A DNA stretch of 39,629 nt, taken from assembly GCA_947372925.1 (NCBI GenBank), contig CANBVQ010000009.1, positions 1 through 39,629 on the forward strand, written 5' to 3'. The position numbers and the translations under genes were made by a program. The stretch is from Acidimicrobiaceae bacterium (GTDB taxonomy: Bacteria; Actinomycetota; Acidimicrobiia; Acidimicrobiales; RAAP-2). The notes under the pieces are model-generated. The model was not told where the DNA came from and did no database searches. It worked only from the letters and a program-made list of their open reading frames with translations. Shown one piece after another: positions 2,545 to 39,217 of the stretch; the first letter of the stretch is position 1, and each line of letters begins with the position of its first letter.

Positions 2545-3756
2545 ATGGCAACCCGTCTCCCACTACGAAGTTCTCTGGCTCTCGCCGGACTGCGAATCGT
2601 CAATCGCACCAGCCGTGCATTGGGAGTGGGGCAAGGAACAGTGGCCGGTGGTCGTGTGGCTCTTCGGATTGATCCCCAGCTCGTGCGACGCATGAGCGCC
2701 CGACGGCGCATCGTGTTGGTCACCGGAACCAACGGTAAGACCACCACAACAGCCCTAGTCGTAGCGGCACTTGGCGGTGCCACCACGAACGCCACTGGGA
2801 GCAATATGTCGGCCGGTATCGTTGCCGCACTGGCGACCGACCAAAGCCCGTTGACAGTGCTGGAAGTTGATGAGGCGTACTTGGCGACAGTCGCCGAAGC
2901 AACTCAGCCAGAAGTAGTGGTGCTACTTAATCTCAGTCGCGATCAGCTCGACCGCGCTGCTGAGGTCCGAGTGCTGGCTGAGAAGTGGCGCACCACGTTG
3001 CATAACTCATCAGCCACCATCGTGGCGAACTGTGCCGACCCGCTCGTCGTCTACGCCGCGGTCGCGCAGATGAACTCGAAGGTTGTTTGGTGCGACGTGG
3101 GGTCGAGTTGGACCCTGGATGCCCGCTCTTGCCCGCAGTGCACTGAGCCGTTACATCCCGAGGGGGCATGGCGGTGCGAGTGTGGCTTTGCAAAACCAAT
3201 TCCTGATTTTGTGCTGGGCGAAACATTGAGCGGTGCAGGCAGTTCGGTGGAATTGGATATCTCTCTACCGGGGGCGTTCAATCGCTCAAATGCCGCATTG
3301 GCTGTCGTTGCCGCATCCCTCCTCGGGACTCCACTCCAACTTGCCGCTGAGCGAGTTGGCACTATTCGCGAGGTGGCCGGTCGCTTCACGGTGCGCCAAC
3401 GCGACGGTCAGACGTTTCGCCTCATGCTGGCTAAAAACCCCGCTGGCGTCTCGGCCCTGATTGGTTTAGTGGCCGGAGGAAGCGATGTCGTCGTCTCGAT
3501 TAATGACTTGATTGCTGACGGGACTGATCCCTCGTGGCTCTACGATGCACCCTTCGACCAACTACGTGGGAGCACGGTCTGGTGTACCGGTGAGCGAGCG
3601 CTCGACTTGGCGACCCGCCTCGAGTACGACGATGTCACGGCCCGGGTGGTAACAGTGGACGAAGTCGCGGGACAAATTGCGACATCGAAGCCGGTTGATG
3701 TCATTGCCAACTACACCGCCTTTGCGGCATGGCTGGAAACGACGTCACCATGCTGA
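2545..3756 (+). CDS. murT: MurT, lipid II isoglutaminyl synthase ligase subunit
   Basis: A 403-residue Mur-ligase-like protein. With GatD it amidates the D-glutamate of the lipid II stem peptide at the cytoplasmic membrane, using ammonia from glutamine. The P-loop VTGTNGKTTTTALV lies at about residues 58-71. A Mur central domain follows, with LNLSRDQLDR. The MurT-specific Cys ribbon is CPQC...CEC within SCPQCTEPLHPEGAWRCECG (about 194-213). The DUF1727-type C-terminal domain contains INDLIADGTDPSWLYD. ATG 2545 is chosen because an upstream in-frame TTG (2512) lies inside the 6C RNA terminator stem. The gene overlaps gatD by 7 nt, the normal pairing. Confidence 0.95.
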   Translation: MATRLPLRSSLALAGLRIVNRTSRALGVGQGTVAGGRVALRIDPQLVRRMSARRRIVLVTGTNGKTTTTALVVAALGGATTNATGSNMSAGIVAALATDQSPLTVLEVDEAYLATVAEATQPEVVVLLNLSRDQLDRAAEVRVLAEKWRTTLHNSSATIVANCADPLVVYAAVAQMNSKVVWCDVGSSWTLDARSCPQCTEPLHPEGAWRCECGFAKPIPDFVLGETLSGAGSSVELDISLPGAFNRSNAALAVVAASLLGTPLQLAAERVGTIREVAGRFTVRQRDGQTFRLMLAKNPAGVSALIGLVAGGSDVVVSINDLIADGTDPSWLYDAPFDQLRGSTVWCTGERALDLATRLEYDDVTARVVTVDEVAGQIATSKPVDVIANYTAFAAWLETTSPC

Positions 3757-4472
3757 AGATTGCCGTTCTCTACCCCGAACTCCTTGGAACGTACGGCGAT
3801 GGTGGCAACGCCCTGGTTCTCGCATCGCGAGCGCGGCGTCGCGGCGTCGAGGTTGAAGTCGTGCAAGTCGCGCTTGACGAGGAAATTCCCGATGCCCAAA
3901 TCTTGTTGCTAGGCGGGGGAGAAGATGGCCCCCAGCGTCAAGCCACCTACGGCCTCGCTAAGGATGACACTCTGGCGAAGAGGGTTAACGATGGTGCGGT
4001 GCTGCTCGCGGTCTGCGCCGGTTTCCAACTAATCGGCACCTCGTATGAAGTTGAAGGTGGCCTTCACGTAGAGGGACTCGGACTCGTGGAGTCGGTGACC
4101 ACTCGAGGCGCCAAGCGTCGAGTGGGTGACCTCTTGACGCGCGTTGGCAACCGTTGGATGGTGGGCTTTGAGAACCACGGTGGAGAGACAGAGCTTGGTT
4201 CGAACGAAGTTCCCTTGGGAGTAGTCGAGGCCGGTGCCGGCAATGGTCGGTTTGCCGGCGGTGCTCGTTACGTCGACGGCGTGCGACGTGGCAACATCTT
4301 CGGAACCTACGCCCACGGCCCCGTTCTGGCGCAGAACCCCTGGTTCGCTGATGAACTGTTGACTCATGCCCTCGGACGGGAGTTAGAGCCACTCTCCTCT
4401 GTTGCCGACGATCTCCATCGCTCCCGCGTAAGGGAAATCGGGGACTTCCACGACGACGTCGTCGACTACTAG
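3750..4472 (+). CDS. gatD: GatD, lipid II isoglutaminyl synthase glutaminase subunit
   Basis: A 240-residue class I glutamine amidotransferase that supplies ammonia to MurT. The nucleophile Cys is in LLAVCAGFQLIG (about residue 87), and the catalytic His is in FGTYAHGPVLAQNPWFADEL. LLGGGEDGPQR is the family oxyanion-region motif. The ATG at 3750 overlaps the murT stop and has GGAAA about 10 nt upstream. An ATG 21 nt earlier is in frame but would add an unconserved stretch before MLKIAVLYPE. Translational coupling to murT is likely. The stop shares bases with the convergent acyltransferase stop (CTAG at 4469-4472). Confidence 0.95.
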   Translation: MLKIAVLYPELLGTYGDGGNALVLASRARRRGVEVEVVQVALDEEIPDAQILLLGGGEDGPQRQATYGLAKDDTLAKRVNDGAVLLAVCAGFQLIGTSYEVEGGLHVEGLGLVESVTTRGAKRRVGDLLTRVGNRWMVGFENHGGETELGSNEVPLGVVEAGAGNGRFAGGARYVDGVRRGNIFGTYAHGPVLAQNPWFADELLTHALGRELEPLSSVADDLHRSRVREIGDFHDDVVDY

Positions 4473-5200
4473 GAGCGCAAGTGGTCGCCCCAGGTGGGGT
4501 CGCCCGTCGTTTCTCGGGCAAGATCAATAACGGCGTCTTGAATCCGCTGACCGAAGCGCCGGATGTTTTCACCCTCTTCAATTGAGAGGGGTGGTCCGAA
4601 GGCGACAGTGACTGGCGACCGCCACTTTTTGGGCATTTCGAGATACATCGGAGCCTTGGCGTAACTCGAGATCCACTCTCCGGCACCCACCATGAAAGTG
4701 GGCACTACCACGGCGTCGCTGCGCTCCGCCAGGTAGGCCGCCCCGCCCTTGAACTCCAACATCGGTCCGGTGGGGGTTCGCCCGCCTTCGGGGTAGATCA
4801 AAAGGTCCCAGCCCTTCTTCAAAATCTCAATTGCCTGCGCGGCACTCTGTCGGTTGACTTTGTGGCGTTCGATTGGAATCGCGTTTACGAGGAGCACAGT
4901 GATTCGTGCAGTGGAGAGTTTTGTGAAGAATGTGTCGGAAGCTGCTGCCACTACCGTCCGCCGCCTTCGGGCGCGGTTGAGGGCCGCCAAGGCGATAATG
5001 GTGTCGAGATGGCTGGTGTGGTTGGCCGTGTAGATCGTTGTTGTGCCGAGGGGTGGGAGATTCTCTCGGCCACGTATGTCCATGGTGGTGAGGCGACGTG
5101 TGAGCGGCGTGGCCAAGGCGGTCAGTACTAGGTCTCTAAGAGCGGTGGCGGGAAAACGGCGTGACCACGCGGTGGGAAAATTAAGTCCCAGTTCGGTCAC
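4469..5200 (-). CDS. 1-acyl-sn-glycerol-3-phosphate acyltransferase (PlsC-like)
   Basis: A 243-residue membrane-associated acyltransferase. The HX4D motif is seen in TANHTSHLDTI (about residues 62-72), and the second block is YPEGGRTPTG, which binds the phosphate of lysophosphatidate-like acceptors. It probably makes phosphatidic acid for phospholipid synthesis, although the family also includes acyltransferases for other lipids. The start GTG at 5200 lies 1 nt after the stop of the upstream membrane-protein gene. A longer reading frame begins inside that gene and is rejected as the extra residues have no family character. Likely cotranscribed with the upstream gene. Confidence 0.88.
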   Translation of the reverse strand: MTELGLNFPTAWSRRFPATALRDLVLTALATPLTRRLTTMDIRGRENLPPLGTTTIYTANHTSHLDTIIALAALNRARRRRTVVAAASDTFFTKLSTARITVLLVNAIPIERHKVNRQSAAQAIEILKKGWDLLIYPEGGRTPTGPMLEFKGGAAYLAERSDAVVVPTFMVGAGEWISSYAKAPMYLEMPKKWRSPVTVAFGPPLSIEEGENIRRFGQRIQDAVIDLARETTGDPTWGDHLRS

Positions 5201-34748: not shown

Positions 34749-34791
34749 GATTACCTCCTAGTACCGCCCTTCTCGGTACACGGGAGGCATG
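34745..34791 (+). promoter_or_regulatory. Two small hairpins and Shine-Dalgarno before pgsA
   Basis: CTAGGA (34745-34750)/TCCTAG (34756-34761) and GTACCG (34761-34766)/CGGTAC (34774-34779) form adjacent hairpins between the HIT stop and pgsA. CCTCC (34754-34758) is complementary to GGAGG (34783-34787) of the pgsA Shine-Dalgarno, so alternative pairing could hide that site. Function is inference. Confidence 0.4.
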
Positions 34792-35391
34792 ATGTTCGAC
34801 GGCAAGTTCCGAACCGCAGTTGACAAACGCACGGCACCAGTCGGGCGTTTTTTGGTCAAGTGTGGCTTTTCGGCTGACGTTCTAACGGCCTCGGGACTTC
34901 TCTTTGCCGGTGCTACGGGATGGGCGATTGCCACGGGCCACCATCACTGGGCGATAGTTCTTTTGACTTTGACCGGAGCGCACGACCTCTTCGATGGTCC
35001 AGTTGCGAAGGCCTCGCAGGCTGCTTCGGTACGAGGCAGTTTCTTTGACTCCGTGATGGATCGGTTGTCCGACGCCTTGATACTGGGCGGCGCGGCCTAC
35101 TATCTCGAAGCCACCAATCGTGGGCAGCTGATACTTCTCCCATTCGCCATCATGACCAGTACGTTCATGATCTCCTACCAGCGATCTAAGGCCGAGAGCC
35201 TCGGCCTCGCGGCCAAGGGTGGGCTCATGGAACGGGCCGAACGAATGATCCTGATGGGCGTTTCGTTGCTCGCGACTGCAATATTTATTCCCGTTCTCTG
35301 GATTCTCTTGGTTTTGACGACGATGACTGCGCTCGGTCGATTCCGACGAGTTTGGGTCGTCGCTACTGAAGCCTCCACTACTTCGGAGTAG
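34792..35391 (+). CDS. pgsA: CDP-alcohol phosphatidyltransferase (PgsA / PI-phosphate synthase)
   Basis: A 199-residue integral membrane enzyme. The family motif D-x2-D-G-x2-A-R-x8-G-x3-D-x3-D is seen in HDLFDGPVAKASQAASVRG and FFDSVMDR (about residues 64-90), with Lys in place of the usual Arg after Ala. Next to pimA it is expected to make phosphatidylinositol phosphate, the start of phosphatidylinositol mannosides. ATG 34792 is spaced 4 nt from GGGAGG; ATG 34789 is only 1 nt away and less likely. Confidence 0.9.
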   Translation: MFDGKFRTAVDKRTAPVGRFLVKCGFSADVLTASGLLFAGATGWAIATGHHHWAIVLLTLTGAHDLFDGPVAKASQAASVRGSFFDSVMDRLSDALILGGAAYYLEATNRGQLILLPFAIMTSTFMISYQRSKAESLGLAAKGGLMERAERMILMGVSLLATAIFIPVLWILLVLTTMTALGRFRRVWVVATEASTTSE

Positions 35392-35398
35392 GGAAAAC

Positions 35399-36292
35399 GT
35401 GGACGCCCGTCAGCGCACTCGCGTCACCATGTTTAAGGCCTTGGCTACCGCCATGGAATTTGCCCCCGAGCGTGTTGACCGCTGGATCGGAGAACAGGTC
35501 GCCGGAACGGTAGGCAGGCTCTCAGTGCAGCCTCGTAATCATCTCCGCAGTAACGTCCGTCGGGCTTTAGGTTCGGCCGAGAGTCAGCCATCGAACGCAC
35601 TGCTGGACCGCTACGTCGATAGGGGTTTTGAGACGTACGGCCGCTACTGGGCAGAAGGCGCCAAGCTCCCCGCAATCTCGAAATCGAATGTCAATAAGCA
35701 GTTCTGTTTCTCAGAAGGTCTCGAACACCTCCAAGCGGCAGCGGCTACTGGGCGAGGCGTTGTCATCGCGATTCCCCACATCGGCAGCTGGGAGTGGGGC
35801 GGCGCATTCATGGCCAACATTGGCCTCCCGATGCACGCAGTCGCTGAAGCGCTTGATCCACCCGAGCTTTTTGAATGGTTCGCCAAGAAGCGCCGCGCCA
35901 TCGGCATTGAAGTGGCCCCGCTCAACGAGCAGGCAGGCACCGTCTTACTTTCGACAATCAAGGCCGGAAAGATTGTTGGTCTCTTGTGCGACCGCGATAT
36001 TCAGAACAACGGCATCCCGGCCCGCCTGCTCGGCGAAGAGGTCACCATTCCTGCCGGTCCTGCCACGTTGGCCCTTCGCACGGGCGCAGTCCTGCTGGCC
36101 GGTGCTTGTTATGCCGGTCCTGGTGATGGCCATCACGCCGTGTTCACCCCGCCAATCGCCGCGGAGCGTTTGGGCAAGCTCCGAGAGGATGTTTCGCGAG
36201 TAACACAGTTGGTGGCAGACGAACTGAGTGGGCTGATTCGTCGCGCTCCCGAACAGTGGCACGTTCTGCAGCCGCGCTTCGACACGCCGTGA
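35399..36292 (+). CDS. PIM acyltransferase (PatA / LpxL-like)
   Basis: A 297-residue membrane-associated acyltransferase of the LpxL/HtrB superfamily. The catalytic HX4D/E is seen as PHIGSWEWGG (His at about residue 122; Glu rather than Asp). LLCDRDIQNNG is the second conserved block and HVLQPRF closes the domain. Its place between pgsA and pimA marks it as the PatA-type enzyme that acylates mannose of phosphatidylinositol mannosides. GTG 35399 follows AGGGAAAA. Its stop overlaps the pimA start. Confidence 0.88.
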   Translation: MDARQRTRVTMFKALATAMEFAPERVDRWIGEQVAGTVGRLSVQPRNHLRSNVRRALGSAESQPSNALLDRYVDRGFETYGRYWAEGAKLPAISKSNVNKQFCFSEGLEHLQAAAATGRGVVIAIPHIGSWEWGGAFMANIGLPMHAVAEALDPPELFEWFAKKRRAIGIEVAPLNEQAGTVLLSTIKAGKIVGLLCDRDIQNNGIPARLLGEEVTIPAGPATLALRTGAVLLAGACYAGPGDGHHAVFTPPIAAERLGKLREDVSRVTQLVADELSGLIRRAPEQWHVLQPRFDTP

Positions 36293-37380
36293 GTACACCC
36301 CGACGGGTTGCGATTATCTCGCCGTACGCCCTTGACGTTTTTGGGGGAGTGCAGGAGCAAGTGCTCGGTATGAGTCGGGAATTTATGGCACGAGGAATCG
36401 AGACGCTCGTCGTCTCGCCCGAAGGTGGAGAATTGATTTCGGAGACTCCGGCGCGCGTCTTGAGATTTGGTGGCTGCGTCGCGATCCCCGCCAACGGTTC
36501 TAAAGCCCCCATCACGTTGAGTCCGACTGCGGCGATACGAGCTCGCCAGGCCGTCGACGAGTTCAATGCGGAAATCGTTCACTTCCACGAACCGTTCGCC
36601 CCCCTAGTGGGGTACGGCGAGCTCTTTGCATCGAGTGATCGGATTCGCGTGGGAACGTTTCATCGTTCTGGCGGGGGACCGGCGTACAAGTTGACCAAAC
36701 CTCTGCTGCGACGAGTCCTCAATCGACTCGACGCCCGCGTGGCCGTCAGTGAGAGGGCGGCCGCAACACTACGGACTGCCACTGGTGCCGATGCCGAGGT
36801 CCTCTTCAATGGGTTTGAGCTGAATCGGTTCGCATCGCTGCCTCGCGACATGGTGCCCACCATTCTTTTCGTGGGTCGATTCGAAACGCGTAAGGGTGCG
36901 CACGTTGCTGTTGAGGCGGTGCGCAATTGGCGAGAAAATGGCGGACCGGAAGTGCGGCTCGTTATGGCGGGTCGCGGTCCCGATGCAGCCAAACTTCAAG
37001 CTTTGGCCGATGGCGATCCGGCAATCACGTTTGTTGGCGCGATTAGCGATGCGGAAAAGCGGCGTCTCCTTGGTACGAGTTCCGTGCTAGTGGCGGCTTC
37101 ACTTTTCGGCGAAAGCTTCGGCATGACCTTGCTCGAAGGCATGGCCAGCGGTACAGCAGTGGTTGCCTCAGATATTGATGGTTATCGAGAGGCGGCCGGA
37201 GGACACGCGACGCTGTTTACCCCCAACAGCCCTACCGATTTAAGACGGGCCATTGTGACCGCTTTACAGCAGTCGACGAGCGCGCGTGACGCCGCACTTC
37301 GCCACGCCGAGAAATGGTCAATGGAACAACTTGCGGACCGCTATCTCAGCATCTACGAGCGATGCCAGGCGCGCCGGTAG
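36289..37380 (+). CDS. pimA: PimA, phosphatidylinositol mannosyltransferase
   Basis: A 363-residue GT4 enzyme that adds the first mannose from GDP-mannose to phosphatidylinositol on the inner leaflet. It opens VAIISPYALDVFGGVQEQVLG, with the PimA-like glycine-rich acceptor loop. VHFHEPFAPLV and GTFHRSGGG are family blocks, and VGRFETRKGAHVAVEA and EX7E FGESFGMTLLEGMASG the donor side. GTG 36289 overlaps the acyltransferase stop, so the two are coupled. Assignment rests strongly on neighbourhood. Confidence 0.9.
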   Translation: MSTPRRVAIISPYALDVFGGVQEQVLGMSREFMARGIETLVVSPEGGELISETPARVLRFGGCVAIPANGSKAPITLSPTAAIRARQAVDEFNAEIVHFHEPFAPLVGYGELFASSDRIRVGTFHRSGGGPAYKLTKPLLRRVLNRLDARVAVSERAAATLRTATGADAEVLFNGFELNRFASLPRDMVPTILFVGRFETRKGAHVAVEAVRNWRENGGPEVRLVMAGRGPDAAKLQALADGDPAITFVGAISDAEKRRLLGTSSVLVAASLFGESFGMTLLEGMASGTAVVASDIDGYREAAGGHATLFTPNSPTDLRRAIVTALQQSTSARDAALRHAEKWSMEQLADRYLSIYERCQARR

Positions 37381-37383
37381 CCT
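37378..37383 (+). promoter_or_regulatory. Predicted -10 of leaderless gene, built on the pimA stop
   Basis: TAGCCT, whose TAG is the pimA stop, ends 6 nt before GTG 37390. Confidence 0.45.
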
Positions 37384-37389
37384 TGCACC

Positions 37390-38295
37390 GTGAGTGCCGC
37401 GAAACAACATCAACAACGTCGTCGTAGCAATCAACGTCACCGAGGACCTCGCCATGTCGAGCCCGTACTTGACCCCACGTGGCGAAGTGCTTACGCTCCG
37501 TCCGCAGAAGAGCGTGAGACGAACTCCAATATCACGCTCGGTCTGCAGCGAAACCTGATCGTCGGAGTGGTCGCTTCAATCTTCCTGGCCCTCGTGCTGA
37601 GCCTTGGACTTGGTGTCTCGTTCATCTTGGCGCTGCTCGTGCCAGTGCTCTACCTGGCCGCTGCGGGTGCCCTCTTTCAATCAATTCGCCGCCGAGCCAC
37701 CACGGCTGACGCCCTCGCCGGGTCGCTTGTCGCAGTTTTTCCCGTAGGTGGCACCAAGACCGATCGCGTTCGTCTTTCGACGATCGTGGAGCGTCTTTCG
37801 GCCACGTTTGGGCTGGGTGCCATTAACTGCTTCGTGGTGGAAGAGGATGTCCCGAACGCCACTCTCCTTCGGGACCAGGATAATTACACCTTGATTGTCA
37901 CCACTGGCCTAATGCACGAGGTCGAGTTGATCGAACTCGAGGGCGTTGTGGCTCACTGTATGGCTCGTCAGCGGTTGGGTTACATCGCCGTGCCTTCGTT
38001 GCTAGCGGCCGCCACTATCTCAAAATCGGCCCGCAGTCGCTACGAAGCTCGCATCCGCGGCTGGGCCTTCCGCGCGGACGAAGTGGCCGCAGCCACAATC
38101 CGTTACCCGCTGGGACTTCAGCGGGCGCTGGAGCGTACGGCCTCGACTATTCCCGCGTCTACTTCGTATTTCGCAAGCGAGGCCTACGCCAAAGCCCGGT
38201 GGATCTGGTTCGACCAGCACATCGATGGCAAGGAATTGGCGCTAGGCGACCTCGATCAAGCCAGCACTCGCGCTCAAGCCCTCGAGGAGTGGTAG
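37390..38295 (+). CDS. Degenerate M48-like membrane protein (probable pseudoprotease)
   Basis: A 301-residue protein. Residues 1-48 are basic and polar, and two helices span about 54-72 and 75-96. The remainder resembles M48 (HtpX-like) metallopeptidases: VPNATLLRDQDNYTLIVTTG at 154-173, then ELEGVVAHCMARQRLG at 182-197. The HEXXH site is H189-C190-M191-A192-R193, losing Glu and the second His. The third ligand region ExxAD reads A226-F-R-A-D230, losing its Glu. It is therefore probably not proteolytic. The frame is intact with family-conserved flanks, so it looks maintained rather than decayed. Role unknown. GTG 37390 with TAGCCT 6 nt upstream. Confidence 0.75.
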   Translation: MSAAKQHQQRRRSNQRHRGPRHVEPVLDPTWRSAYAPSAEERETNSNITLGLQRNLIVGVVASIFLALVLSLGLGVSFILALLVPVLYLAAAGALFQSIRRRATTADALAGSLVAVFPVGGTKTDRVRLSTIVERLSATFGLGAINCFVVEEDVPNATLLRDQDNYTLIVTTGLMHEVELIELEGVVAHCMARQRLGYIAVPSLLAAATISKSARSRYEARIRGWAFRADEVAAATIRYPLGLQRALERTASTIPASTSYFASEAYAKARWIWFDQHIDGKELALGDLDQASTRAQALEEW

Positions 38296-38308
38296 CGGGT
38301 CGCACCAT

Positions 38309-38314
38309 TAGGGT
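38309..38314 (+). promoter_or_regulatory. Predicted -10 of leaderless pdxS
   Basis: TAGGGT ends 6 nt before ATG 38321 and abuts ATG 38315, favouring 38321 as start. Confidence 0.45.
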
Positions 38315-38320
38315 ATGACC

Positions 38321-39217
38321 ATGACTACGCAAGAAAACTTCGGCTCAGTAGGTACGGCCCGCGTCAAGCGCGGACTGGCAGACATGCTTCGCGGAGGCGT
38401 CATTATGGACGTCGTTAACCCTGAACAGGCTCGGATTGCCGAAGATGCTGGTGCAGTTGCCGTGATGGCTCTCGAGCGGGTCCCTTCCGATATTCGCCGT
38501 GACGGTGGCGTTGCTCGTATGAGTGACCCCCAGATGATCAAAGAGATTCAAGCGACTGTCACCATTCCCGTGATGGCCAAGGCCCGTATTGGCCACTTTG
38601 CCGAAGCGCAGATTCTTCAGGCCCTTGATGTTGATTACATCGATGAATCGGAAGTTCTTACGCCGGCCGACGAAGTCAACCACATAGACAAGTGGGACTT
38701 CACGGTGCCATTCGTCTGCGGTGCTACCAACCTGGGCGAAGCACTTCGCCGCATTGGCGAGGGTGCCTGCATGATCCGCTCGAAGGGTGAAGCCGGTACC
38801 GGCAACATTGTTGAAGCCGTGCGCCACCTCCGCACCATCAACAAGGCCATTCGCATGCTGCAATTGGCCGATGAGTCTGAACTGTTCTCGATGGCCAAAG
38901 ATCTTCAGGCCCCGCTACCACTCGTTTTGGAAGTTGCGGCGACTGGCAAGCTTCCCGTACCCCTGTTTTGTGCCGGAGGGATCTCTACCCCCGCTGACGC
39001 TGCACTAGTTCTGCAACTAGGTGCTGAAGCAGTTTTTGTCGGTTCAGGAATTTTCAAGAGTGATGACCCGGAGCGTATGGCGAAAGCCATTGTCGAGGCG
39101 ACCACGCACTACCTTGATGCCTCCGTTGTTGCTCGTGTCTCGACGGGTCTCGGTGCAGCCATGAAGGGCTTTGAAACCGCGACATTGGAGCAGCGTCTCT
39201 CTGAGCGCGGTTGGTAA
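38321..39217 (+). CDS. pdxS: Pyridoxal 5'-phosphate synthase subunit PdxS
   Basis: A 298-residue (beta/alpha)8 enzyme. It makes pyridoxal phosphate from ribose 5-phosphate, glyceraldehyde 3-phosphate and ammonia delivered by Pdx[21 protein letters not shown] contains the active Asp, [13 protein letters not shown] the first catalytic Lys and [10 protein letters not shown] the second. The sequence is near-canonical in length and motifs. ATG 38315 is an alternative start 6 nt earlier. The TAATG junction couples it to pdxT. Confidence 0.97.

Follow-up and report, generated by a model that had tools for sequence, protein, structure and literature searches.

An open reading frame wedged between a pimA-type glycosyltransferase gene and pdxS in an Acidimicrobiaceae bacterium (GenBank GCA_947372925.1) encodes a membrane protein that resembles the M48 peptidase HtpX, with an altered active site. 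We asked what kind of protein this is, how its zinc site came to be lost and what it could be doing at this locus. Our analysis covers positions 1 to 39,629 of the forward strand of contig CANBVQ010000009.1, a stretch of 39,629 nucleotides that we call the window. Other protein families, such as the rhomboids and caspases, are well known to include pseudoproteases. Our literature search, which covered its sources in part, found no paper on an M48 pseudoprotease branch at the pimA-pdxS locus.

The gene and its neighbourhood

By codon usage, the frame scores +63.9 compared with at most +17.3 in the other five frames, which matches the neighbouring genes; together with orthology, this rules out a random open frame. 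As the initial annotation had stated, the gene is intact and embedded between pimA and pdxS, with Pfam-identified neighbours on both sides (Table 1). It starts 9 bases past the pimA stop codon and ends 19 bases ahead of pdxS. The pgsA-, patA- and pimA-like labels of the upstream neighbours are ones that we presume from gene order in actinobacterial genomes.

Table 1. Genes and protein features at the pimA-pdxS locus of the window (residue numbers refer to the M48-derived protein).
Feature	Position	Strand	Details
CDP-alcohol phosphatidyltransferase, pgsA-like position	34789..35391	+	Pfam E 1.3e-9
Acyltransferase, lipid A acyltransferase Pfam family, patA-like position	35399..36292	+	Pfam E 5.7e-40
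pimA-type GT4 glycosyltransferase, upstream neighbour	36280..37380	+	Pfam
M48/HtpX-derived gene, putative pseudoprotease	37390..38295	+	301 aa, GTG start, open frame
N-terminal motif V-x-P-V-L-D-P-x-W-x-x-x-Y-x-P-S-x-x-E-R, residues 23-42	37456..37515	+	Genus-specific, outside M48 domain; invariant L27, D28, W31, Y35, P37, E41
Two long helices, residues 39-73 and 78-116, predicted membrane hairpin	37504..37737	+	AlphaFold/DSSP; hydropathy peak at residues 48-99
NATL, residues 156-159, counterpart of M48 edge-strand NAF motif, kept	37855..37866	+	N156 55/55, A157 54/55
HCMAR, residues 189-193, in place of HEXXH	37954..37968	+	H189 55/55, C190 51/55, R193 55/55
AFRAD, residues 226-230, in place of ExxAD	38065..38079	+	Glu at 226 in 0/55; R228, D230 55/55
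RYP, residues 238-240, core of M48 TRYPPGL motif, kept	38101..38109	+	RYP or RFP in 121/124 linked copies
C-terminal helix DLDQASTRAQALEEW, residues 287-301, replaces THPPLEERI tail	38248..38292	+	Invariant last Trp, W301 55/55
pdxS (SOR/SNZ), downstream neighbour	38315..39217	+	Pfam E 3.1e-106

Linkage to both flanking genes is nearly constant. The M48-derived gene adjoins pdxS in 30/30 and pimA in 28/30 of a first set of loci, and lies beside pdxS in 53 and beside pimA in 52 of the 54 loci in a second set. In locus L069 (about 3590-4990), pimA lies approximately 1.4 kb away from the M48-derived gene, unlike in nearly all other members. Synonymous divergence between the window (36280-39214) and locus L047 is unequal across the three genes (2.05 for pimA, 0.95 for the M48-derived gene and 0.32 for pdxS), a difference that could stem from recombination or from codon usage being strongly constrained in pdxS. 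The window-family locus also turned up in public records whose titles name Saccharibacteria or Acidobacteria(ota) (L064, L070, L077, L079 and L084); these records are apparently mislabelled.

Predicted fold

Profile searches and structure prediction support the reading of the product as a two-helix membrane protein with an HtpX-type M48 fold. NCBIfam HtpX models match residues 119-193 (E 2.7e-8), far below the model cut-offs. In Pfam, the window protein has no match, M48 included, at E<=1 and does not reach the PF01435 gathering score, and M48 is absent from the families that 55 family members match at E<=0.01; the gathering score is reached by the intact sisters L102, L032 and L125. Profile-profile comparison of the family with nine ordinary HtpX proteins, a set that holds no window-family members, gave a probability of 98.6% (E 1.3e-15). 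In a profile alignment with the HtpX domain 3cqb, the NA of the family falls on INAFATG. A further comparison (A3 with A4) is not independent, with six window-family rows in A4, and the family profile (A3) found nothing among PDB sequences at E<=1.

The AlphaFold model of the window protein (pLDDT 86.7, pTM 0.82) consists of two long helices followed by an M48 domain. In VIA-align, the model matched the M48 peptidase 3c37 (Z 11.4, rmsd 3.5, 153 aligned), BepA (Z 11.3, rmsd 3.2, 150 aligned) and 3cqb (Z 7.8, rmsd 3.2, 96 aligned); the top row was ZMPSTE24 with Z 11.7, but at an rmsd of 14.7. The best Foldseek matches were ZMPSTE24 (E 1.7e-3) and 3c37 (E 2.7e-3), with none at E<=1e-3. A model of the intact sister L102 (pLDDT 91.0) gave a similar list of structural matches. 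The M56 protein BlaR1 (8exs) has a similar metalloprotease fold and a lower Z than the M48 structures (Z 9.5, rmsd 5.7, 204 aligned, compared with Z 11.4 for 3c37), and weak, sub-cut-off Pfam M56 matches occur in intact sisters only. The M48 scaffold that the initial annotation had recognised by eye is thus upheld by the NCBIfam models, the profile-profile comparison and the predicted fold; its suggested comparison of a predicted structure with HtpX returned an M48 fold, and a fold unlike M48, which it had named as refuting evidence, was not seen.

Loss of the active site and conservation within the genus

HEXXH is replaced by HCMAR and ExxAD by AFRAD, both as first reported. The catalytic Glu has become Cys, the second zinc His has become Arg and the third-ligand Glu has become Ala. 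The initial annotation had all three zinc-ligand positions disrupted, which is correct for two of them; the first zinc His, H189, is present in the window protein and in all 55 aligned sequences (the window and 54 loci), so that only the second and third ligands are gone. All 55 genus-level sequences share H-(C/L)-x-x-R, with Cys in 51 and Leu in four at position 190 and an invariant E231, and a further set of 30 loci has the same residue pattern. Another genus member, L126, has HGMAR, with Gly at the Cys position. The locus sets (55 sequences, 30 loci and L126) overlap in organisms and their counts are not additive. Position 250 is Cys in 52/55 sequences and Thr in the window itself.

HEXXH is absent from the active-site columns of every row in the 55-sequence alignment. 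A HE..H string occurs somewhere in four sequences, and the three that were located (L085, L087 and L094) lie in the N-terminal tail. The alignment of orthologues from the pimA-pdxS position that the initial annotation had proposed therefore shows the ligand loss to be shared, with no genus-level orthologue that carries an active-site HEXXH. A loss common to 55/55 sequences is more than chance, and recent decay or sequencing error is ruled out on the same ground.

Some match to the protein was found in 60 of the 61 genomes searched, and full-length genus-level copies occur in 33 of 37 genomes from this genus of uncultured bacteria, the window's own among them; none of these 33 contains a stop codon. 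The genus member G008 has only a gene fragment (C59:28024-28155), G015 has only fragments, in two separate pieces (C129:7787-8202), possibly through a frameshift or an assembly fault, and G021 and G023 have only weak, paralogue-like matches. NG86 dN/dS was 0.046-0.215 for the M48-derived gene (10 related pairs), 0.083-0.198 for pimA (nine pairs) and 0-0.089 for pdxS, with dS saturated in several of the pairs. The gene is under purifying selection in the genus. Across the 55 sequences, 35 columns are invariant, including the N-terminal motif and the last Trp, which lie outside the ancestral M48 core. On its sequence and predicted structure, the product can be classed as an M48 non-peptidase homologue, with the fold kept, the catalytic residues lost and purifying selection acting on the gene.

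Origin and recurrence of the loss

Across the order, the pimA-pdxS slot holds an intact M48 in many families and a zinc-site-less M48 in many others. We aligned 124 copies, each on the same strand as a linked pimA or pdxS, leaving out 13 unlinked copies and four loci without a match (one of them a 100-base filler). Sampling was non-random, with the window genus covered deeply and one round targeted at low-scoring families. All four active-site residues are present in 46 copies. Of the rest, 36 come from the window genus and have all lost the site, and in the remaining 42 one or more of the four residues is missing. Arg occupies the second-His position in 24 of these 42; His to Arg is a single base change, so mutation alone may explain the recurrence.

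Within the window's own family, genus g26 (L125) is intact with HELAH and ELRAD, genus g27 (L184 and L185) has HLLAH and has lost the third Glu, and g1 has a fully changed active site. Intact L125 branches just outside g27 and g1, with support of 93 on the pimA+pdxS tree and 83 on an M48 tree from which the motif columns were excluded, and further intact groups (L101-L104, f43, f45 and L032) lie next outside on the M48 tree. This placement indicates that the zinc site of the window genus was most likely lost within its own family. The intact linked copies L101-L104, f43/f45 and L125 occupy the same slot and share the shortened architecture of the window protein, and in L101-L104 and f43/f45 a D/E-L-D C-terminal tail replaces THPP, as it does in the window protein; they differ from it in having HEXXH and the third-position Glu.

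Losses were counted as irreversible and as at least two of the four active-site residues. The pimA+pdxS tree requires 17 losses, or 12 with branches under 95 collapsed (three long rows dropped); the M48 tree requires 12, or nine at support 80 and only two when nothing under 95 is trusted. From these trees, we infer that the zinc site was lost independently 9-17 times at the pimA-pdxS slot, with fewer losses if very strongly supported branches only are used. A single ancestral loss for all lost copies is rejected on the M48 gene tree (AU p = 7.4e-5; 59/116 rows).

Changed copies were also found in another class of the phylum. In a phylum sample, 17/149 genomes match A1. The 12 matches that were retrieved are all from outside the class: six are intact (families f71, f74 and f77, with pimA in each stretch) and six, from family f65, carry H-C-L-x-R, four of these on stretches that also contain pimA and pdxS. 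Loci in f65 with a pimA-linked M48 are L242, L245-L248, L253 and L254-L269. In 16 f65 genomes, the best copy has H-C-(L/I)-x-R in 11 cases and HGLVR, QTLLR and SLLVR in one each; these 14 could be read, L267 and L268 yielded no pattern, and HEXXH was found in 0/14. The same genomes gave 14 weaker M48 matches besides, of which 13 have HEXXH and one (L282) was unread. One loss common to the window genus and f65 is disfavoured (AU p = 0.024, for a group named after the motif was seen and with long branches), and the shared H-C-L-x-R is apparently a convergence.

The probable ancestral layout of the cluster is pimA-lemA-htpX-(DUF3048)-pdxS, which is seen with LemA directly upstream of M48 in L035, L040, L110, L114, L139 and others. 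In some other families, M48 and pdxS are separated by a DUF3048 gene (L106 by Pfam, others by eye). Where a relative is intact and has a THPP tail, lemA is often found immediately upstream and the protein often has a second membrane hairpin; the window gene has neither, and LemA was absent from 23 of the 25 genus genomes searched, its own included. A tie between the presence of lemA and catalytic state was not borne out, since lemA is kept beside zinc-less copies in L110 and L139 (by Pfam) and L114 (by eye), and the pimA gap is too small for lemA beside many intact copies. With the window genus excluded, the second hairpin is kept in 2/42 lost and 14/46 intact copies, which is only suggestive of a tie between hairpin loss and zinc-site loss (independent-pairs sign test, median p 0.22).

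Separately from the linked gene, the window's own genome encodes an HtpX that reads HELSH. In 30 genomes where the linked copy lacks active-site residues, an unlinked HtpX with HEXXH was found every time (29 scored by pattern, and L241, with HETGH, by reading). Only the linked gene is thus affected by the loss. Two M48 matches are found in most genomes of the order, whether the linked copy is intact or lost.

Discussion

Our favoured explanation, at a probability of about 55%, takes the product for a pseudoprotease anchored in the membrane, which descends from an HtpX-type M48 peptidase, has lost the zinc site and probably acts as a client-binding adaptor. An HtpX-type metalloprotease would long ago have resided in a pimA-lemA-htpX-pdxS cluster. 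The lineage of the window gene would have shed lemA, a second hairpin, the THPP tail and, last, the zinc site; the fold would have stayed, as would the edge strand that binds substrate. Peptide cleavage would be gone, and the old cleft could hold a client polypeptide or partner, so that the protein may serve as a membrane adaptor or chaperone-like factor, with the new invariant N- and C-terminal motifs possibly used for docking. The initial annotation had called the protein a conserved non-proteolytic relative of HtpX; a conserved, zinc-site-less membrane homologue it is, and the absence of cleavage is a presumption drawn from the missing residues.

BepA (YfgC), among the best-scoring structures for the window model together with 3c37, is like 3c37 an intact M48 peptidase; against the analogy, it is periplasmic and a distant M48, and it has a TPR domain. 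One report describes the E. coli BepA edge strand Asn105-Ala106-Phe107 as studied for client contact, and the chaperone-like activity of the protease-dead E137Q variant as weakened and still detectable (PMC8423444). These data and the retention of N156 and A157 favour a non-cutting, client-binding adaptor. The edge-strand NA is kept in 33/46 intact linked copies and 35/36 copies of the window genus, compared with only 25/42 other lost copies, and its retention is therefore no general rule for lost copies.

The presence of an unlinked, HEXXH-bearing HtpX in 30/30 genomes with a lost linked copy would suit a regulatory partner that adjusts membrane proteolysis by pairing with active HtpX or by competing for its substrates, and two sources describe inactive paralogues that regulate active counterparts (PMC10211241, PMC5201418); in most genomes, however, two M48 matches are found regardless of the state of the linked copy. 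The pairing is therefore no peculiarity of lost copies, and we regard such a role as possible but unlikely. The PI/PIM lipid branch could instead have in this protein its own scaffold or regulator, with PimA, the neighbouring acyltransferase or the phosphatidyltransferase as target; this reading, close to what the initial annotation had proposed, seems decidedly doubtful. It draws on gene order: pimA is adjacent in 28/30 loci, with no space in the gap for another gene in most members, and the cluster is kept over many families. Yet the vitamin B6 gene pdxS is equally tightly linked, intact M48 copies sit in the same slot in other families and classes, and L069 has its 1.4 kb gap. The pimA-lemA-M48-pdxS neighbourhood is old, so synteny by itself is no proof of a functional tie; that with pimA is inherited and could be without functional meaning.

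The residues at the old active site could instead have acquired a changed chemistry, in which His189 and the Cys at the catalytic position, with Cys250 in most members, would form a new metal or thiol site. Cys is frequent at both positions (51/55 and 52/55) and H-C-L-x-R also arose in f65, but the window has Thr at 250, and the Cys position holds Leu in 4/55 sequences and Gly in L126, which makes this very improbable. The wider proposal that H-C-L-x-R is a convergently evolved new centre with a shared non-zinc activity (thiol chemistry, redox sensing or ligand binding) is speculative and rather improbable; were it true, two lineages from different classes would have replaced HEXXH by an identical His-Cys-Leu-x-Arg at the same pimA-linked locus. 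We disfavour a slowly eroding relic without remaining function as extremely unlikely: losses at the slot recur across the order, and G008 and G015 have only fragments in their assemblies, but dN/dS is 0.05-0.22, the 35 invariant columns include new motifs, and the full-length genus copies are free of stops and maintained across a deep genus.

HtpX and the candidate pseudoprotease share a pair of membrane helices at the N terminus, a soluble M48 domain, the edge strand NA(F), the helix ELEGVVAH and the motif AD...RYPxGL. The candidate differs in having no HEXXH, third-ligand Glu, second transmembrane hairpin or THPP tail, and in its extra N-terminal motif. BlaR1, the M56 relative in fold, is a sensor-inducer protease with an intact zinc site. 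The iRhoms are eukaryotic and have the rhomboid fold, which is unrelated to M48. The likeness to iRhoms and other pseudoproteases lies in a membrane protease fold kept without catalysis, as set out in one source (PMC6451368).

For genome annotation, our findings are a warning that genes of this kind receive either an HtpX label that they do not deserve or none. A single slot in which a membrane protease has become zinc-less many times, with intact sisters extant, offers a natural experiment on the non-cutting roles of HtpX.
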